Shown piece by piece: positions 412-62,241 of a DNA stretch of 64,000 bases. Source of the stretch: Sphingomonas parva (ex Maeng et al. 2020) (GTDB lineage: Bacteria > Pseudomonadota > Alphaproteobacteria > Sphingomonadales > Sphingomonadaceae); assembly GCF_004564275.1 (NCBI RefSeq), contig NZ_SPDV01000014.1, forward strand, positions 62,001 through 126,000, given 5' to 3'. The translations under genes and the position numbers were made by a program. Numbering within the stretch: the stretch's first letter is position 1; each line of letters begins with the position of its first letter. The notes under the pieces are model-generated. The model was given only the letters and a program-made list of their open reading frames with translations. It did no database searches and had not been told where the DNA came from.

Positions 412-1291
412 CGAGACCCGCCTGCACATCGCCATCCAGAAGTCGGGCCGCCTCTCCGACTACAGCCGCGGCCTGCTCCGCGATGCGGGCCTGCGCATCC
501 AGAACGGCAAGAACGATCTCACCGCCCGGGTGGACAATGTCCCCGCCGACCTGATGTTCGTGCGGGACGACGACATTCCGACCTTCGTCAGCGACGGCGT
601 TTGCGAGTTCGGGATCGTCGGCGAGAACGTGCTTCGTGAATTCACCCTCGGCGAGGCCGAGCCGCGGATCGAGATCGTCGCCCAGCTCGGCTTCGGTCGC
701 TGCGCGCTCAAGATCGCGGCGCCCGAGAATGCGATCTACGAAGGTCCGCAGTCGCTGCAGGGCGGTCGGATCGCGACCTCCTATCCCTGTATCGTCCAGC
801 GCTTCCTGGACGACAATCGCATCCAGGCGACGGTGGTGAAGATGAACGGCGCCGTCGAGCTCGCGCCGCGCCTGCAGATCGCCGGCTTCATCTGCGATCT
901 CGTCTCGACCGGCGCAACGCTCGAGGCGAACGGCCTGAGGGCGGTGGAGACGGTGTTCGAGAGCGAGGCAGTGCTGATCCGCACGAGGAAGCCGATGGCG
1001 CCGGCGAAGATCGATCAGGGCGGCAAGCTGATGAGCCGCATCGAAGGCGTGCTCGCCACCAAGGAATCGAAATACATCATGCTCAATGCGCCGAGCGAGG
1101 CGCTGCGCGAGATCACCGCGATCCTGCCCGGCGCCGAGGCGCCGACCATCCTGCCGCTGCACCAGCGTCCGGGTCATTTCGCCGTCCATGCCGTCTGTCA
1201 GGAATCGGTCTTCTGGGAGACCCTCCAGAAGCTGAAGGACGCCGGCGCGTCCGCGATCCTCGTCCTCCCGATCGAAAAGATGATGCTGTGA
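401..1291 (+). CDS. hisG: ATP phosphoribosyltransferase, long form (HisG)
   Basis: Catalyses the first step of histidine synthesis, joining ATP and PRPP to give phosphoribosyl-ATP. At 296 residues it is the long form, with two periplasmic-binding-like catalytic lobes (IAIQKSGRLS at the start, the PRPP loop CDLVSTGATLEANG in the middle) and a C-terminal allosteric domain ending in VLPIEKMML. The long form is feedback-inhibited by histidine and needs no HisZ. Start 401 is preferred over 389 because it gives the normal family N terminus. The stop overlaps the GTG of the next gene by four bases (GTGA). The protein strongly resembles enterobacterial-type HisG. Confidence 0.95.
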   Translation: MLVDETRLHIAIQKSGRLSDYSRGLLRDAGLRIQNGKNDLTARVDNVPADLMFVRDDDIPTFVSDGVCEFGIVGENVLREFTLGEAEPRIEIVAQLGFGRCALKIAAPENAIYEGPQSLQGGRIATSYPCIVQRFLDDNRIQATVVKMNGAVELAPRLQIAGFICDLVSTGATLEANGLRAVETVFESEAVLIRTRKPMAPAKIDQGGKLMSRIEGVLATKESKYIMLNAPSEALREITAILPGAEAPTILPLHQRPGHFAVHAVCQESVFWETLQKLKDAGASAILVLPIEKMML

Positions 1292-4281
1292 AATTTCTCG
1301 ACTGGACCAGTCTCGACGCCGACGCCCGCAAGACGGCTCTCGCGCGCCCCGAGCAGCGCAGCGATCCCGCGCTGCAGGCGGCGGTACGCGCGATCGTCGA
1401 CGATGTTCGCACCGGCGGCTGGGACGCGCTCGTCGCCCAGGCAACGCGGCTCGACGGCGAGGCGCCGCGGCGCGTGCCCGTGGCGCCGATCGCCGCCGAG
1501 GCGCGCCGCAGCCTCGCACCCGAGCAGACCCAGGCAATCGCCCTCGCCGTCCGCAACGTCGAGGCCTTCCACCGGGGCAGCCTCCCTGCCGAGCATGAGG
1601 TGGAGACCGTCCCCGGCCTCAGCGTTCGCAAGGTCTGGCGATCGATCGATCGGGTCGGCCTCTACATTCCGGGCGGCAAGACCCCGCTCTTCTCGACCCT
1701 GCTGATGCTGGCGCTGCCTGCGAAAGCGGCGGGGGTGCGCGAGATCGTCGCGGTCACGCCGCCTCGCCCGGAAGGCGGGCTCGATCCGGTGATCGCGCTC
1801 GCCGCCGAGCTCTGCGGCATCGACGCCCTTTGGACCGTGGGCGGCGCCCAGGCGATCGCCGCTCTCGCCTTCGGCGCCGGCGACATCCCTGCCGTCGCGA
1901 AGATCTGCGGACCCGGCAATGCCTGGGTCGCGGAGGCCAAGAATTACGTCGCGTCGCTCCCGGGTGGAGTCGCGATCGACATGCCCGCCGGACCGAGCGA
2001 GCTGATGGTGATCGCCGACGAGACCGCCGACGTCGGCCTCGTCGCCGCCGACCTGCTCAGCCAGGCGGAGCATGATCCCTCGGCGCAGGTTCTTCTGGCG
2101 ACCCCGTCGCAGGACCTGATCGGCCGGATCGAGCGGGAGCTCCAGGGCCGCGCCGCCGCGCTGCCGCGCGCAACCATCGCCCAGGCGTCGCTTGCTCATG
2201 CGCGCATCCTGCGCACGGCCGATCTCGGCGAGGCGGCGGAGGTCGCCAACCTCTACGCGCCCGAGCATCTCTCGCTGGCCGTCGCCGAGCCCGCAGCCCT
2301 GGTCGGAGCGATCCGCAACGCCGGCGCCGTCTTCGCCGGGCCGCTCGCGGCCGAGACGTTCGGCGATTATCTCGCCGGCTCGAGCCACGTCCTCCCCACC
2401 GACGGCGCCGCTCGCGCCTGGAGCGGCGTCTCCGTCTACACATTCCTCAAGGCGATGAGCGTCCAGACCGTGACGCCGGAAGCAGCCGCCCGGATCGCGG
2501 CGCCGGCCGCGGCGCTGGCCCGGCTCGAGGGGCTCGAGGCACACGCACGCGCGGCGGACGCTCGGCTGGGCGCGGGCACTACGCCGCCCACGCGTCTGCC
2601 GGAGGGCCGAGGCGTTGGTTCCGGTCTTGCGGCCCGTCTCGCACGTCCGGAGATCCTCGCCCTCCCCGCCTTCGACATCGCGGCCGCAGCGAATGACGCA
2701 TTCGGGCCCGACGCGATCAAGCTGGATGCCAACGAAAATCCCTATGGGCCGCTCAGCGAGGGCGCGCTCGCCAAGGGACTCAACCGCTACCCCGAGCCGC
2801 AGCCGATGCGGCTCAAGCAGGCGATGGCGGCGCTGTACGGCGTCGGTCCCGAGAATCTGATCGTCACGCGCGGCGCCGACGATGCGATCGACATCCTGGT
2901 CCGCACCTTCTGCCGCGGACCCGAGGATGCGATCTCGATCTGCACGCCCACTTTCTCGGCCTATGCGCATTTCGCGCAGCTGCAGGGCGCGCGCGTGATC
3001 GACGCGAAGCTCGACGCCAATTTCGACTTCGATGCCGACGCTTTCATCGAGACCGTGCGGGGTGAGCGGTCGCTCAAGCTCGCTTTCCTCTGCTCGCCGA
3101 ACAACCCGACCGGCAATCCCGTCGATCCGGCCGACGTCCTTCGGGTCGCCGACGCGCTGCCGGAGACGATGATCGTCCTCGACGAGGCCTATCTCGAATT
3201 CTCGGAGACGCCGAGCCTGGCCGAGGAAGCGACGCGGCGGCCGAATTTGGTAGTGCTGAAGACGCTGTCCAAGGCCTATGGTCTCGCCGGCGCCCGGGTC
3301 GGCGCCCTGCTCGGCCCGGGCGAGACGATCGCCATCGCCGCCCGGGCGCTGCCGCCTTACCCTTTGCCGACCCTGTCGATCGAGGCCGCGCTCGCCGCTC
3401 TCGCCCCGTCCCGCCGTCCGATTCATCTCGAGCGCATCGCCCGGATCAAGGCCGATCGCGAGCGGCTCGCCGGCCTGTTCGCCGGATCGCCGATCGTTGA
3501 GACGGTGCGCAGCGGCGGCGGCAACTTCCTGTTCCTCGAGGTCGACGATCCGGCCGGCCTCGCCAGGAAGCTGAACGGGCTCGGCATCCGCGTCCGCTTC
3601 CGCCCCAACGCCGCGCCGGGCGGCGTCCGCCTGACGATCGGCACCGACGCCGAGAACGAAGCGGCGCTCGCCGCGTTCGGAGTCACGTCCAGCGACGCGC
3701 CCGCTCGCCGCGCCGAGGTCGTGCGCGACACCAAGGAGACGAAGATCGCGGTCGCGGTCGATCTCGATCGTTCGGCTCCGCGGCAGATCGAGACGGGGAT
3801 CCCATTCTACGACCACATGCTCGATCAGGTCGCCGCCCACGCCGGCTTCAGCCTCGTCCTCTCCTGCGACGGAGATCTCGACATCGACGGCCACCACAGC
3901 ATCGAGGATTGCGCGATCGCCTTCGGCACGGCGCTGTCGCGCGCGCTGGCCGACCGGCGCGGCATTGGTCGCTTCGGCTTCTCGCTGCCGATGGACGAGA
4001 CCGAGGCGCACGTGCTGATCGACCTCTCGGGGCGGCCCTACACGGTGTTCGAGGGAGAGTTCGAGGCCAGCCACATCGGCGCCTATCCGACCGAGATGAC
4101 GCGCCACGTCTTCCGCTCGCTCGCCGACAGCCTCGGCGCGGCGATCCACGTCCGGGTCGAGGGCGAGAACGACCATCACAAGACCGAGGCATGCTTCAAG
4201 GCGTTCGGCCGTGCGCTTCGCCAGGCCGTCGCCCGCGAAGGCGATCGCGACGCGATGCCCAGCACCAAGGGGGTCCTGTGA
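1288..4281 (+). CDS. hisD-hisC-hisB: Trifunctional fusion: histidinol dehydrogenase - histidinol-phosphate aminotransferase - imidazoleglycerol-phosphate dehydratase (HisD-HisC-HisB)
   Basis: One open frame of 997 codons carries three complete enzymes. Residues 1 to about 430 are HisD, with zinc ligands and catalytic residues in SQAEHDPSAQ (near 257), APEHLSL (near 325), GDYLAG, and the closing EGLEAH. Residues about 450-805 are HisC (LDANENPYG near 479, CSPNNPTG, DEAYLEF, PLP lysine K662 in LSKAYG). Residues about 810-997 are HisB without a phosphatase domain (DHMLDQ near 842, DGHHSIED, DHHKTEA near 962). No ATG, GTG or TTG lies in frame in the linker before HisC, and none at a plausible place before HisB, so separate translation is unlikely. 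The start is GTG, overlapping hisG; the end overlaps hisH (GTGA). Each half keeps its key residues, so all three activities are expected. Confidence 0.93.
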   Translation: MKFLDWTSLDADARKTALARPEQRSDPALQAAVRAIVDDVRTGGWDALVAQATRLDGEAPRRVPVAPIAAEARRSLAPEQTQAIALAVRNVEAFHRGSLPAEHEVETVPGLSVRKVWRSIDRVGLYIPGGKTPLFSTLLMLALPAKAAGVREIVAVTPPRPEGGLDPVIALAAELCGIDALWTVGGAQAIAALAFGAGDIPAVAKICGPGNAWVAEAKNYVASLPGGVAIDMPAGPSELMVIADETADVGLVAADLLSQAEHDPSAQVLLATPSQDLIGRIERELQGRAAALPRATIAQASLAHARILRTADLGEAAEVANLYAPEHLSLAVAEPAALVGAIRNAGAVFAGPLAAETFGDYLAGSSHVLPTDGAARAWSGVSVYTFLKAMSVQTVTPEAAARIAAPAAALARLEGLEAHARAADARLGAGTTPPTRLPEGRGVGSGLAARLARPEILALPAFDIAAAANDAFGPDAIKLDANENPYGPLSEGALAKGLNRYPEPQPMRLKQAMAALYGVGPENLIVTRGADDAIDILVRTFCRGPEDAISICTPTFSAYAHFAQLQGARVIDAKLDANFDFDADAFIETVRGERSLKLAFLCSPNNPTGNPVDPADVLRVADALPETMIVLDEAYLEFSETPSLAEEATRRPNLVVLKTLSKAYGLAGARVGALLGPGETIAIAARALPPYPLPTLSIEAALAALAPSRRPIHLERIARIKADRERLAGLFAGSPIVETVRSGGGNFLFLEVDDPAGLARKLNGLGIRVRFRPNAAPGGVRLTIGTDAENEAALAAFGVTSSDAPARRAEVVRDTKETKIAVAVDLDRSAPRQIETGIPFYDHMLDQVAAHAGFSLVLSCDGDLDIDGHHSIEDCAIAFGTALSRALADRRGIGRFGFSLPMDETEAHVLIDLSGRPYTVFEGEFEASHIGAYPTEMTRHVFRSLADSLGAAIHVRVEGENDHHKTEACFKAFGRALRQAVAREGDRDAMPSTKGVL

Positions 4282-4859
4282 ACCTCGTCATCGTCGACGT
4301 CGGCTGCGGCAACATCGGCTCGGTGGGAATCGCCTTCGAGCGCTTCGGACTCTCGCCCCGGATCACCGGCGATGGCGAGGCGATTTCGACGGCCGACAAG
4401 GTCATCCTCCCCGGAGTGGGCGCGGCCGGCTATGCGATGGGCGAGATCGCCAGGCGCGGCCTGGCGCCGGTCCTCCGTGCCCTGCGCCAGCCGGTGCTCG
4501 GCATCTGCCTCGGCATGCAGATCCTGTTCGAGCATAGCGAGGAGGAGGACACCGCCTGCCTCGGCATCATTCCGGGCGCGGTGCGCAGGCTCGATCCCGC
4601 CCCGGGGCGGCCGGTGCCGCACATGGGCTGGAGCCGGCTTCAGGTGCGGGACGAGGAGATCGGCCTCCGCTCCGGAGACTATGTCTATTTCGCCCACAGT
4701 TTCGCCTGTGACGAGGGCGCGGCGACGGTCGCCAGCGCCGATTACGGCCGCGAGATTCCGGCCGCCGTCCGCGCGGGCAATTTCCTCGGCGCCCAGTTCC
4801 ACCCCGAGCGCTCCGGCGAGGCCGGCGCGCGCTTCCTCGAAAGCTTCCTCGACGCATGA
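4278..4859 (+). CDS. hisH: Imidazole glycerol phosphate synthase, glutaminase subunit (HisH)
   Basis: A class I glutamine amidotransferase of 193 residues that supplies ammonia to HisF. The nucleophile elbow GICLGMQ (cysteine near residue 77) and the C-terminal triad region QFHPERSG are intact. Translation starts at a GTG that shares four bases with the stop of the HisD-HisC-HisB gene, and the stop overlaps the hisA ATG (ATGA), so the genes are translationally coupled. It acts in the cytoplasm as a complex with HisF, encoded one gene downstream. Confidence 0.95.
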   Translation: MNLVIVDVGCGNIGSVGIAFERFGLSPRITGDGEAISTADKVILPGVGAAGYAMGEIARRGLAPVLRALRQPVLGICLGMQILFEHSEEEDTACLGIIPGAVRRLDPAPGRPVPHMGWSRLQVRDEEIGLRSGDYVYFAHSFACDEGAATVASADYGREIPAAVRAGNFLGAQFHPERSGEAGARFLESFLDA

Positions 4860-5575
4860 TCCTCTACCCCGCCATGGACCTGATGGGCGGCAAGGTCGTC
4901 CGGCTCGCTCAGGGCCGCTTCGACGACGCCACCACCTACCCGGCCGATCCGATCGAGGCGCTGGCCCGCTTTGCTGCGGCGGGCGCGACCTGGGCGCACA
5001 TCGTCGATCTCGACGGAGCGCGCGCCGGCACGCCCGTCCAGCACGATCTCCTCGCCGCGCTCGCCGAGACGGCGCCGCTCCGCCTGCAGGTCGCCGGCGG
5101 CTTCCGCACCCGCGAGCAGATCGCGCGGATGTTTGAGGCGGGCGTGGGCCGGGTCGTGATCGGCAGCCTCGCCGTCAAGCAGCCCGATCTGGTTCGTGGA
5201 TTCCTGGACGAGTTCGGCGGCGACCGCATCACGCTTTCGCTCGACGTCCGGATCGTCGAGGGTACGCCGTTCGTCGCCACCGCGGGCTGGACTGAGGACA
5301 GCGGCCGCTCGCTGTGGGACGTCGCCGCACTCTATCCCGACGCGCGCCACCTGCTCCTCACTGACATCGGGCGCGACGGCATGCTCGCAGGGCCCAATTT
5401 CGAAGTGCTCGAGGAGGCAGGTGCGCGGCTGCCGCATCTGGCGATCCAGGCATCGGGCGGAGTCTCCTCGCTCGACGACCTGGAGCGCCTCACCACCGAC
5501 GGCGCGATCATCGGCAAGGCGCTCTGGGAGGGCCGCATCCGGCTCGAGGAGGCGGTCGCCCTTGCCCGCGCGTAG
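4856..5575 (+). CDS. hisA: Phosphoribosylformimino-AICAR phosphate isomerase (HisA)
   Basis: A 239-residue TIM-barrel isomerase that converts ProFAR to PRFAR, the fourth step of the pathway. The first-strand motif MILYPAMDLMGGKVVRL and the C-terminal half motif LTDIGRDGM carry the two catalytic aspartates expected for the family. Length is normal. The ATG overlaps the hisH stop by four bases, and the end overlaps the TTG start of hisF by 14 bases. Confidence 0.95.
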   Translation: MILYPAMDLMGGKVVRLAQGRFDDATTYPADPIEALARFAAAGATWAHIVDLDGARAGTPVQHDLLAALAETAPLRLQVAGGFRTREQIARMFEAGVGRVVIGSLAVKQPDLVRGFLDEFGGDRITLSLDVRIVEGTPFVATAGWTEDSGRSLWDVAALYPDARHLLLTDIGRDGMLAGPNFEVLEEAGARLPHLAIQASGGVSSLDDLERLTTDGAIIGKALWEGRIRLEEAVALARA

Positions 5576-6329
5576 GATCATCCCCTGCCTCGACGTCAAG
5601 GACGGACGGGTGGTCAAGGGCATCCAGTTCCGCGACCATCGCGACGTCGGCGACATCGTCGAGAGCGCGATGCGCTACCGCGAAGAAGGCGCGGACGAGC
5701 TCGTCTTCTACGATATCGCGGCCAGTGCGGAGCGGCGCAGCCTCGATCCCGAGTGGGTGCGGCGGATCGCCCGGGTGATCGACATTCCGTTTGCCGTCGC
5801 CGGCGGGGTGCGGACCCGCGACCAGGCGGCCGCATGCCTCGACGCGGGCGCCGACAAGGTCTCGATCAACTCGCCGGCGCTCGAGCGCCCCGCCCTGATC
5901 GAGGAGCTCGCCCGCGATTTCGGCAGCCAGTGCGTCGTGCTCGGGGTCGACAGCTTCGAGGCCGACGGAGACTATTGGGTGAAGCAATATACGGGATCGC
6001 CCGACGCCACGCGAGACACCGGCCGTCGCACCCTCGACTGGGTCAAGGAAGCCACGGATCGCGGCGTCGGCGAGGTGGTGCTCAACTGCATGCGCCGCGA
6101 CGGGGTGCGCACCGGCTACGATCTCGCCCATACCAGGGCCGTCGTCCAAACCGCGAGCGTGCCCGTGATCGCCTCGGGCGGCGCAGGTGCACCCGAGCAT
6201 TTCCGCGACGCCTTCGTCGAAGCCGGTGCGAGCGGCGCCCTGGCCGCGACCGTCTTCCACGATCGCCTCATCCCCATTCCCGATCTCAAGGAGTATCTCG
6301 CCGCATGCGGGATCGAAATGCGCCGCTGA
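5562..6329 (+). CDS. hisF: Imidazole glycerol phosphate synthase, cyclase subunit (HisF)
   Basis: A 255-residue TIM barrel that uses PRFAR plus ammonia from HisH to make imidazole glycerol phosphate and AICAR. It begins LPARRIIPCLDVKDG, where the aspartate of CLDV is catalytic, and the second catalytic aspartate lies in VLGVDSF. The only sensible initiator is a TTG at 5562, inside the end of hisA; no ATG or GTG precedes the conserved N terminus in this frame. The TTG may reduce translation or rely on coupling from hisA. The end overlaps hisIE by 25 bases. Confidence 0.93.
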   Translation: MPARRIIPCLDVKDGRVVKGIQFRDHRDVGDIVESAMRYREEGADELVFYDIAASAERRSLDPEWVRRIARVIDIPFAVAGGVRTRDQAAACLDAGADKVSINSPALERPALIEELARDFGSQCVVLGVDSFEADGDYWVKQYTGSPDATRDTGRRTLDWVKEATDRGVGEVVLNCMRRDGVRTGYDLAHTRAVVQTASVPVIASGGAGAPEHFRDAFVEAGASGALAATVFHDRLIPIPDLKEYLAACGIEMRR

Positions 6330-6940
6330 CCGAGGCGGATGCCTCCTCCCTCGCCTGGGACAAGATGGACGGCCTGCTGCCGGCCGCGGTGCAGGATGCC
6401 GCGACCGGGCGGCTGCTGATGCTCGGCTACATGGACCGGGATGCGCTCGCCGCAACCCTCTCCTCCGGCTTCGCCACCTTCTACAGCCGCTCGAAAGGCC
6501 GGCTGTGGATGAAGGGCGAGACCAGCGGCAACCGGCTGGCCGTGCGCTCGGTCCACGAGGATTGCGACGGAGACGCCCTGCTCGTGCGCGCGGCGCCGGA
6601 AGGTCCCACCTGCCATCTCGGCACGACCAGCTGCTTCGGCGGCGACGAGAACGGCCCAGCCTGGCTCGCCGAGCTCGCCGCAATCGTGCGGGATCGGGCC
6701 GCCTCGGGCGACGAGACCAGCTACACCCGCCGGCTGCTCGCCGAAGGGCCGGCGAAGATCGCCCAGAAGGTCGGCGAGGAAGGGGTCGAGGTCGCGCTCG
6801 CCGGGGTGACTCGCGACGCTGCCGGGTGCGTCGAGGAGACGGCGGATCTCCTCTATCACCTGACTGTTCTGATGGAGGCGCGCGGCTATGGCTGGGAGGA
6901 CGTAATCGCCGTGCTCAAGCGGCGGCATCAAGCCGGCTGA
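6305..6940 (+). CDS. hisI: Bifunctional phosphoribosyl-AMP cyclohydrolase / phosphoribosyl-ATP pyrophosphatase (HisIE)
   Basis: A 211-residue two-domain protein for the second and third steps of the pathway. The N-terminal HisI domain has YSRSKGRLWMKGETSGN and the metal-binding blocks HEDCDGDALL and TCHLGTTSCF. The C-terminal HisE domain is an all-helical MazG-like fold with KVGEEGVEVALA and the distal ETADLLYHL. The ATG lies inside the end of hisF. As the last gene of the operon it is followed within 36 bases by a strong hairpin. Confidence 0.95.
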   Translation: MRDRNAPLTEADASSLAWDKMDGLLPAAVQDAATGRLLMLGYMDRDALAATLSSGFATFYSRSKGRLWMKGETSGNRLAVRSVHEDCDGDALLVRAAPEGPTCHLGTTSCFGGDENGPAWLAELAAIVRDRAASGDETSYTRRLLAEGPAKIAQKVGEEGVEVALAGVTRDAAGCVEETADLLYHLTVLMEARGYGWEDVIAVLKRRHQAG

Positions 6941-7006: not shown

Positions 7007-7128
7007 TGAATCCCGCGCGACCGGCAGCGGATCCTGGCAGCGTCCTGCAAGGAAGAGGCATGTAAGCTGCTCTACATTGGAGTGTGGCGCACCGGATCCT
7101 GGTGCGCAGGTCTGATCGGAGCGTGCGA

Positions 7129-8028
7129 ATGCGGTTCTCTTGGTTGCTTCTCCCCTTTGCGGCCCTGCTGGCGCAGCCGGCCGTCGGCCAGGTCTCGCCG
7201 AAGCTGCAGGTGCTCGAGCAGCGGCTCGGCTCGATGGCGAGCGAGAATCCGGGAGAGTTCGGCATCGCCGCGATGGATCTGTCCACCGGCCGCACCGTCA
7301 GCTTCAACGGCAACGAGCCGTTCCCGATGGCGAGCACGATGAAGATCGCCGTCGCCGCCGCCTATCTCACCGATGTCGACGCCGGCCGCCGGACCCTCGA
7401 CGATCCGATTGCCGGCACGACCGCCCGCGCGCTGATGGACGCGATGATCACGCGCAGCGACAATCGCGCGACCGACCTGCTGATCGGCGCGCTGGGCGGG
7501 CCGGCCTCGGTCGACCAGTGGCTGCGCGGCCACGGCCTGACCGGGATCCGGGTCGACCGGACCATCGCCCAGTTGCTCAGCGCGCGCCGCGACCTGCGCG
7601 ACGTGCGGGATTCGAGCACGCCGACGGCGATGCTCGGCCTGCTTCGCCTGCTCGACAGCGGCACCGCGCTGACTCCGCAGAGCCGCTCGATCCTGCTCGA
7701 CATGATGCGGCGCTGCCGCACCGGCTCCAACCGCATCCGCGGCATCCTTCCGCCGGGCGCCACGGTCGAGCACAAGACCGGTACGCTCAGCGGATATACC
7801 GGCGATGTCGGCTTCCTCACCACGCCGACCGGCCGCCGGATCGCCGTCGCCTTCTTCGCTCGCGGCGGCGAGAACCGCCCGGCGGTGATCGCGACCGCCG
7901 CGCGCATGATCTACGACGCGTTCGGCGCCGAGCAGAGCGCGGATGCCGCCGCCTCGATCGCCGAGGCCCAGGCGAGCCTCGCGCCAGCCCCCGTGCCGTC
8001 GCAGCGTACCCCCGCCTTCGCCCATTGA
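7129..8028 (+). CDS. Exported class A beta-lactamase-like serine hydrolase lacking Glu166
   Basis: A 299-residue penicillin-binding/serine-lactamase fold protein with a Sec signal peptide (MRFSWLLLPFAALLAQ, cut near QPAVGQ). The catalytic motifs STMK (SxxK), SDN and HKTGT are all present. In class A enzymes the deacylating glutamate lies 36 residues after the serine of SDN; here that position is isoleucine (VDRTIAQ), so a normal lactamase mechanism is doubtful. It may be a weak or non-classical hydrolase, or a peptidoglycan-related DD-peptidase-like protein. The start at 7129 is chosen over 7084 because it begins the signal peptide. Confidence 0.8.
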   Translation: MRFSWLLLPFAALLAQPAVGQVSPKLQVLEQRLGSMASENPGEFGIAAMDLSTGRTVSFNGNEPFPMASTMKIAVAAAYLTDVDAGRRTLDDPIAGTTARALMDAMITRSDNRATDLLIGALGGPASVDQWLRGHGLTGIRVDRTIAQLLSARRDLRDVRDSSTPTAMLGLLRLLDSGTALTPQSRSILLDMMRRCRTGSNRIRGILPPGATVEHKTGTLSGYTGDVGFLTTPTGRRIAVAFFARGGENRPAVIATAARMIYDAFGAEQSADAAASIAEAQASLAPAPVPSQRTPAFAH

Positions 8029-19096: not shown

Positions 19097-19906
19097 TCAG
19101 GCGGCGTCCCGCATCAGCGCGACGGCCTGATCGAACAAGCGCGGCGTCGCGGCAGCGATCACCTTGCCCGGGGAGAAATCCTCGCCGCCGGTCCAATCGC
19201 CGATCACGCCGCCGCCGGCGCGGACCACCGGGATCAGCGCATTGTAATCGTGCGGCTTCAGCAGCGATTCGATGACCAAGTCGATCGTTCCTGCGGCGAG
19301 ACGCGCATAGGCATAGCCGTCATGGCCGTAGCGGGTGGTGCGAACCGAGGCGCGGACTCGCTCGAACGCCTCACGCTCCGCACCCTGGAACAGGTAGGGG
19401 TCGGTGGTCGACAGGCGCGCCTCGGCGAGGTCGGTGCGCCCGCTGGTGCGGAGCGGCGCCTCCCGCCCCGCCCGCACGAACGCGCCCCCGCCTTCATCGC
19501 CCCAATAACACTCACCGAGGGACGGCACGTCGATCACGCCGGCGATCGCGCGCCCTTCGTCCAGCAGGCCGATCAGGGTCACCCAATTGGGGAGACCGCA
19601 GGTGAAGGAGCGGGTGCCGTCAACCGGATCGAGGCTCCAGGTGAACGGCCCGCGCGCCGGGCGATCGGGGAATTCCTCTCCGGCAATGCCATGGTCGGGA
19701 AAGGCGGCCTCGATCGCGGCGCGCATCGCGCGCTCCGCCTCGCGATCCGCGTCGGTCACGGGATCGAAGTCGGGACCGCCCCCGCCCTTGTCCTCGACGT
19801 CGGCGGCGCCGATCCCCTCGTGCCAGCGGTGCATCGTCTCGCCACGGGCGATCTCGGCCAGCCTCAGGGCAAAAGGCGTCAGCGCGGCGCGATCCTGGTT
19901 CGTCAT
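19097..19906 (-). CDS. hisN: Inositol-monophosphatase-family phosphatase, probable histidinol-phosphatase (HisN)
   Basis: A 269-residue Mg-dependent phosphatase of the IMPase fold. Metal-binding motifs are intact: DPVTDADREAE (about 48-58), GEEFP, the central DPVDGTRSF (about 93-101), and the C-terminal PHDYNALIPVV. The GTRSF and PHDYNAL wording fits the HisN branch, which removes phosphate from L-histidinol phosphate. The his operon at the window start has no phosphatase domain in its HisB part, so this protein would close the pathway. Other IMPase substrates (inositol or nucleotide phosphates) are not excluded. Confidence 0.8.
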   Translation of the reverse strand: MTNQDRAALTPFALRLAEIARGETMHRWHEGIGAADVEDKGGGGPDFDPVTDADREAERAMRAAIEAAFPDHGIAGEEFPDRPARGPFTWSLDPVDGTRSFTCGLPNWVTLIGLLDEGRAIAGVIDVPSLGECYWGDEGGGAFVRAGREAPLRTSGRTDLAEARLSTTDPYLFQGAEREAFERVRASVRTTRYGHDGYAYARLAAGTIDLVIESLLKPHDYNALIPVVRAGGGVIGDWTGGEDFSPGKVIAAATPRLFDQAVALMRDAA

Positions 19907-61906: not shown

Positions 61907-62241
61907 CCGCCGTTCTCCCTCGTGCCGCCGGATGATGATGGCGACCGGGTTCGGGGCCGGAAAGAGCTGGTTGTGGACAACTCAGCGAAGCATGTGGAGA
62001 AGCTGTGCACTGATCCAAGTTTTCTCCGGATATCTTTCGCACTCCTCGGAACCCGGCAGGCCGGCTCCATTGATCGGGACGGTTGGCACCCAAAAAGAGT
62101 TGGCGCCGCGCTCTTCACATACCGGTAGGTGCTCGCCGCTTCCTGGTGGCGGGATTGGCATGACGCCCTGAACTCGGCGCTGCGCTGGAGCGGTTGGACG
62201 CTTTCTCGAGGGAAGGCGTCCTCATCTCCGATCGCCTAACC
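61907..62241. other. No supported gene
   Basis: 335 bases between the NUDIX and DUF1643 genes. A 77-codon plus-strand frame is open but has no homology or ribosome site I can defend. Probably promoter DNA for the minus-strand NUDIX gene. Confidence 0.5.

Follow-up and report, generated by a model that had tools for sequence, protein, structure and literature searches.

Fused enzymes of histidine biosynthesis

The influence of gene fusion on pathways is classically studied in histidine biosynthesis, for which several fused enzymes are known. In gammaproteobacteria, HisB forms the C-terminal half of HisNB, with a HAD phosphatase as its N-terminal partner. According to the available part of PMC1963479, the fungal multifunctional enzyme HIS4 (HisI-HisE-HisD) carries HisD at its C-terminus, HisIE is found in several lineages, and a prokaryotic search gave no HIS4-like protein. 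Neither PMC1963479 nor PMC10138114, in the portions consulted, names hisC among the fused his genes. A further his gene fusion, hisDCB, is encoded in the window, a stretch of 64,000 nucleotides from Sphingomonas parva (NCBI RefSeq assembly GCF_004564275.1, contig NZ_SPDV01000014.1, forward-strand positions 62,001 to 126,000). At window positions 1288-4281 (+), this gene joins HisD, HisC, and HisB in a single frame, and extant related genomes preserve the probable steps by which it was assembled.

Like HisNB, the hisDCB product has HisB at its C-terminal end and is encoded in a compact his operon, but the partner of HisB is HisC (with HisD ahead of it), and there is no phosphatase module. The HisNB model NF003937 matches only from position 166, with 275.2 bits against a cut-off of 443. 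HIS4 likewise includes HisD, which in hisDCB is N-terminal and fused to HisC-HisB, whereas HisIE is here a separate gene at 6305-6940. HisIE itself resembles hisDCB in joining neighbouring steps encoded in one operon, though from other enzymes, and the same operon contains it. Also related are the HisC-HisB proteins found here in other Alphaproteobacteria, which share the C-B frame while HisD is encoded separately. The initial annotation knew of no description of HisD-C-B, and full-text searches, which cover little subscription literature and no annotation databases, returned none for either HisC-HisB or HisD-HisC-HisB; automatic annotations may exist. Here, hisC is part of a fusion in many genomes.

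One frame with three complete domains

The hisDCB frame begins with a GTG that overlaps the hisG stop codon (GTGA) and runs for 997 codons without an internal stop to a TGA. The computed mass of its product is 104.6 kDa, in line with the roughly 105 kDa first proposed. Within its own genome, the HisD-C-B protein has one match at E<=0.001, and two paralogues of HisC score lower with the HisC model (98.6 and 65.4 bits).

All three domains are complete and each scores over its model cut-off, which bears out the initial annotation of a 997-codon HisD-HisC-HisB frame. The HisD domain (1288-2568, +; residues 1-427) matches Pfam Histidinol_dh (PF00815) at residues 22-427 with 464 bits, far over the cut-off, and the whole of NCBIfam hisD TIGR00069 (model positions 1-393 of 393, 447.4 bits, cut-off 243.8); the solved chain 1k75 aligns over it. 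A linker (2569-2631, +; residues 428-448) leads to the HisC domain (2632-3678, +; residues 449-797), over which the chains 1fg3 and 7szp align. Here Pfam Aminotran_1_2 is far over its cut-off (475-796, 149 bits) and TIGR01141 narrowly so (residues 454-797, model positions 2-346 of 349, 281.9 bits against 276.55). After a second linker (3679-3705, +; residues 798-806) comes the HisB domain, an imidazoleglycerol-phosphate dehydratase (IGPD; 3706-4278, +; residues 807-997). It is covered by the full PF00475 model (residues 836-977, model positions 1-144 of 144, 189.5 bits, far over the cut-off), by NCBIfam HisB NF002111 (236.5 bits, cut-off 231), and by the chain 4mu0, and in trees it falls with the HisB portion of HisNB.

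The catalytic motifs were said to be kept in all three enzymes, and every residue checked is present. HisD has Q259, H262, E326, H327, D360, and H419, which we take to be the zinc ligands and the catalytic Glu-His pair. HisC has K662 in an SKA(Y)GLAG motif, presumably the Schiff-base lysine for pyridoxal 5′-phosphate. The HisB part contains H843, H869, H870, E873, H940, H963, H964, and E967, His/Glu motifs that are assumed to bind metal.

An AlphaFold model of the whole product has a mean predicted local distance difference test (pLDDT) score of 83.8 and a predicted template modelling (pTM) score of 0.55, and is no reliable guide to the relative placement of the domains. It was built from an alignment of 21 of the 49 rows of an earlier one, with HisD-only rows excluded; the earlier alignment, which mixed HisD-only with HisCB-only rows, looked misaligned and was discarded. 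Among the 50 listed of 1746 Foldseek matches are HisD- and HisC-family chains and none of IGPD; HisB was matched by sequence. Probably, hisDCB specifies one 105-kDa polypeptide with histidinol dehydrogenase, histidinol-phosphate aminotransferase, and imidazoleglycerol-phosphate dehydratase activities, which would be translated and work as a single chain.

Distribution of the fused frames

The HisD-C-B fusion is real and conserved. A search of the genus gave some match in 23 of 26 genomes, and four carry HisD-C-B as a single frame without stops: the window genome (G000), G001, G007, and G014. Chance as the source of the frame is excluded because three other genomes have it, and all three Pfam domains are present in each of those frames. 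Because the window genome is a 111-contig draft, an assembly or sequencing error might have joined the genes. The probability of this is very small: the same frame occurs in the three further genomes, one of which (G007) is assembled in two contigs, and HisC-HisB forms a single frame in 25 of the 25 genomes of the order that match at 1e-100 (396 searched). Assembly error was therefore ruled out as a source of the frame.

Junctions could be read in 18 genomes of the genus, a count that leaves aside G013 and G016 (HisD only) and, at the HisD-HisC boundary, G019, where the sequence covered contains no HisD. HisC and HisB share one frame in 17 of the 18, and also in G019; in the eighteenth, G020, the junction falls in ambiguous bases (N). 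HisD and HisC share one frame in only five. In the remaining 13, the hisD stop codon overlaps the hisC start in another frame (ATGA, or GTGA in G018). The fifth genome with joined HisD and HisC is G009, in which HisC is without its first 20-odd residues and is interrupted by a 9-N scaffold gap, and which is not counted as a complete D-C-B. Five of the 26 genomes are without a strong match to the his locus: G010, G017, and G025 have no match, and G004 and G006 have weak ones in the HisC region alone.

Beyond the order, HisC-HisB is full-length in nine of 385 genomes of the class including the window genome, in families f109, f161, f117, f115, f133, and f1. In the phylum (398 genomes), among the matches listed, best first, only the window genome spans residues 1-997 without stops, and the HisD-HisC matches that run through stops are separate genes. 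The HisC-HisB joint, spread over several alphaproteobacterial families, is older than the HisD-HisC joint, which is young.

Two-domain HisD-HisC frames with a separate HisB were also observed in a Thermoflexales metagenome-assembled genome (MAG; L094, 2863-5502, +) and a Pelotomaculum MAG (L100, 2836-5298, +), the latter with an in-frame ATG in the linker. These may be independent fusions or open frames with an internal start codon.

One chain or several

The initial annotation found no usable start codon before HisC. This holds in the window genome, where the frame has no ATG, GTG, or TTG between codons 395 and 507, a span that takes in the HisD-HisC linker and the start of HisC near codon 449. 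In G014 the same is true between codons 395 and 514. The HisC-HisB linker also has none; across codons 781-840 the sole such codon, GTG 812, lies a few codons past the HisB start. The case for the joined chain as the only product is strongest in the window genome and G014, because neither offers an ATG, GTG, or TTG around the HisC start.

The fusion might instead exist on paper only, with HisCB made also or mainly by internal initiation or linker cleavage and the joined form neutral. Several observations weigh in this direction and against a single chain. The G007 linker has in-frame GTG codons behind a G-rich stretch; codon 466 of G001 is an in-frame ATG, located roughly 17 residues past the start of HisC and ahead of DANENP, so that a separate HisCB is possible in both genomes; and the in-frame CTG codons 427 and 437 of the window may serve as weak starts. 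The HisD-HisC linker is predicted with low confidence (mean pLDDT 29 at residues 431-440) and changes fast, and cleavage within it could separate the fused parts. On the other side stand the missing starts in the window genome and G014, and the fact that three linkers of differing length in one clade all keep the frame. Between G000 and G001 this linker is near saturation and differs in length, yet remains open and in frame. A fusion on paper only is judged rather improbable, its odds being slightly raised by the ATG of G001.

Translation as one chain is preferred, and each domain is under strong purifying selection. The ratio of nonsynonymous to synonymous substitution rates (dN/dS) is approximately 0.03-0.3 in each domain among the fused genomes of the genus; the G000-G001 values (NG86) are 0.125/0.759 for HisD, 0.091/0.762 for HisC, and 0.052/0.643 for HisB.

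Origin of the HisC-HisB joint

Phylogeny places the fused HisB beside HisNB. A tree built from 105 HisB domains splits all 35 fused and all 36 HisNB-type sequences from all 34 separate HisB with support 98.9/100, HisNB being labelled by length and a short motif (DRDG and similar) rather than by profile. Fused HisB groups with the gamma-type HisNB (88.5/95), while Bacteroidota HisNB lies apart (99.6/100). A smaller tree of 93 sequences, with HisNB labelled in this way too, gives the same first split (99.1/100). Both trees cover loci with a long enough HisB match and exclude L079, whose match figures are identical to those of L142, and L153, a short sequence at a contig end that was included in the HisB tree made alongside the HisC tree. 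Six loci added to the 105-domain tree were labelled as fused by length, in agreement with their single-frame matches. The gene order of the operon (TrpR-like gene, hisG, hisDCB, hisH, hisA, hisF, hisIE) corresponds to hisGDC[NB]HAF[IE] without N.

These trees and the junctions suggest that an operon of the hisGDC[NB]HAF[IE] type would have lost the phosphatase module of hisNB, which would have set hisC in frame with hisB. HisC is proposed to have met HisB in this way because fused HisB clusters with the HisB portion of HisNB and not with free-standing HisB. The module may have been dispensable because an IMPase-type (inositol monophosphatase-type) HisN is likely to have been present; the available part of PMC5516325 describes such a HisN as generally present in Sphingomonadales. 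Afterwards hisD would have come into frame as well, on two or more occasions in the genus, through small insertions or indels at its ATGA overlap with hisC. This path, module loss followed by at least two additions of hisD, is given slightly better than even chances.

Three points stand against it. The clade of fused HisB by itself is weak (47.8/78); the direction, with the module lost rather than never gained, depends on rooting the tree with separate HisB; and the HisC tree does not unite the fused sequences but mixes them with separate HisC, the largest pure clade holding 19 of 28. Such mixing would follow if HisC domains were exchanged, if fusion occurred more than once, or if the tree has limited resolution. 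The same points favour an origin of HisC-HisB from separate genes by simple stop loss, with HisNB built from the same HisB lineage. Under that alternative, however, it is awkward that HisNB is not one clade apart from fused HisB, as the contrasting positions of the gamma-type and Bacteroidota sequences demonstrate, and that the gene order matches hisGDC[NB]HAF[IE] without N. Simple stop loss is considered unlikely, and loss of the hisNB module is retained as the preferred origin.

Probable repeated addition of HisD

In a protein tree of HisD and HisCB, the HisD-HisC fused genomes (G000,(G001,G007)) form a clade with support 100, fused G014 is sister to unfused G018 (support 99), and G009 pairs with unfused G020 (support 65). 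HisD therefore appears to have joined HisCB at least twice, perhaps three times, because G014 has an unfused sister and lies apart from the other fused clade. It is less likely that HisD was fused once, early on, and that unfused genomes reverted several times to precisely the same overlap.

In some species the joint involves dispersed repeats. The G007 linker has nine other matches in its own genome at E<0.03, eight of which cover one core of 35-54 bases holding a palindrome. The G001 linker contains an inverted repeat that is, by eye, two bases off the G007 palindrome, and the G009 linker looks like a related repeat. Such repeats also occur at the hisD/hisC boundary of unfused G015 and G024, where they are read as HisD tails. 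Each of 10 genomes searched has 16-89 copies of a general form of the palindrome and 0-2 of a backward control. RNA folding, compared with shuffles at seven junctions, is better in the G007 linker (z -2.4) and in the insertions of G015 (-4.3) and G024 (-4.1), and no better in the window (-1.0), G001 (-0.2), G014 (+0.4), or G009 (0.0). At L006 and L012, the palindromic insertions of unfused G015 and G024 lengthen HisD by several dozen residues.

The window's own linker tells against a general repeat origin. Its best other match in G000 reaches only E=0.03, with no clear repeat copy; three palindrome patterns sought in the window were not found; and a 13-base core occurs there 10 times against a shuffle mean of 16, with no enrichment. 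A repeat origin of this linker was thus set aside as a candidate and could be argued solely by analogy with its clade mates. The sequences point to dispersed-repeat linkers in G007 and, by eye, G001; G000 and G014 lie outside that evidence.

Several stages consequently coexist in living species: hisD separate beside hisCB, repeat insertions at the boundary with hisD still separate, and full hisDCB. Comparison with the unfused sister species could show directly whether the joining of HisD alters flux, or stoichiometry only.

A lysine-less HisC domain in another lineage

In genus g158 (L149, 1501-2997, -; L148, 1501-4131, -; L224-L227), HisC-HisB has a shortened HisC half, which matches the query only from approximately residue 611-621. 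The lysine of SKAYGLAG is replaced by leucine in all five species seen (G282, G495, G1156, G1165, and G1220), and all five also encode a separate HisC that exceeds the model cut-off. Among the fetched loci with HisB and the SKAYGLAG motif in one frame, 69 have lysine and six leucine; these are loci rather than species, overlapping loci are included, and distant fused loci may escape the motif. The lysine-less half suggests a cost of fusion, in that a domain is hard to drop once it is no longer needed, and fits the idea that the HisC-HisB joint is hard to undo. In G305 (L151, 691-2367, +), the stretch preceding HisB resembles a degraded HisC no longer recognised by Pfam, and a separate HisC scores 272 bits, just below the cut-off of 276.55.

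Proposed assembly and function

HisB catalyses step 6 of histidine biosynthesis, HisC step 7, and HisD steps 9 and 10, with step 8 performed by a phosphatase that acts between HisC and HisD. The substrate of HisD is histidinol, not histidinol phosphate. HisC and HisD are homodimers. Among the structures matched by the IGPD part, 6ezm and 7oj5 contain 24 chains, and IGPD forms a 24-subunit shell with its N-terminal sheet outside (PMC10978614, in the part available).

By analogy, the HisB part of hisDCB would assemble into the 24-subunit shell typical of IGPD, its N-terminal side facing outward, and the HisC and HisD dimers would sit outside the shell on their linkers. At 105 kDa per chain, such a particle would be near 2.5 MDa. 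HisB could hand imidazole acetol phosphate to its tethered HisC neighbour, which is plausible because the product of HisB is the substrate of HisC. HisD would ride along and gain at most proximity and a fixed stoichiometry, because the HisC product is first dephosphorylated by a separate HisN. The initial annotation proposed that the fusion co-localises steps sharing two intermediates; this stands for imidazole acetol phosphate, passed from HisB to HisC, and not for histidinol phosphate, on which the separate phosphatase acts before HisD.

Taken as a whole, the chances are about even that these genes represent a previously unrecognised alphaproteobacterial lineage, in which loss of the hisNB phosphatase module made HisC the partner of HisB and HisD was then added more than once through dispersed palindromic repeats or indels at the hisD/hisC overlap. 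On this view the resulting 2.5-MDa shell would hold each of the three enzymes in 24 copies, and in another lineage the presence of a second hisC would have let the fused HisC degenerate to a lysine-less domain still attached to HisB.

The his operon and neighbouring genes

Upstream of the fusion lies hisG (401-1291, +), of the long form with a C-terminal domain (TIGR00070 and TIGR03455 over cut-off). Before it, a TrpR-related gene of the YerC/YecD family (34-411, +; TIGR02531, 63 bits, cut-off 42.2) is a possible his regulator; a DNA-binding regulator, HisR, has reportedly been described for Gram-positive bacteria. Downstream follow hisH (4278-4859, +; TIGR01855, 196.4 bits, cut-off 105.4), which overlaps hisDCB by GTGA, and hisA (4856-5575, +), whose best match, TIGR00007, reaches 210.7 bits, below the cut-off of 228.95. 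Overlaps thus occur at hisG/hisD, hisDCB/hisH, and hisH/hisA. The next gene, hisF (5568-6329, +), is placed from its homology start at residue 125 of the open reading frame 5196-6329 (TIGR00735, 316.3 bits, cut-off 294.55). The last, hisIE (+; NF002747, 250.8 bits, cut-off 187), is the second fused gene of the operon.

A probable hisN, encoding an IMPase-type histidinol-phosphate phosphatase, lies 15 kb downstream of the fusion (19097-19906, -) and scores 252.6 bits with TIGR02067, below the cut-off of 275.15. In all four genomes with the complete fusion, the best hisN-like match is found approximately 3-15 kb away, in none of them over the model cut-off. An Rfam scan of the window gave nothing at gathering scores. 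Downstream of hisIE, the gene at 7084-8028 (+) probably encodes a secreted serine hydrolase, by eye similar to class A beta-lactamases.

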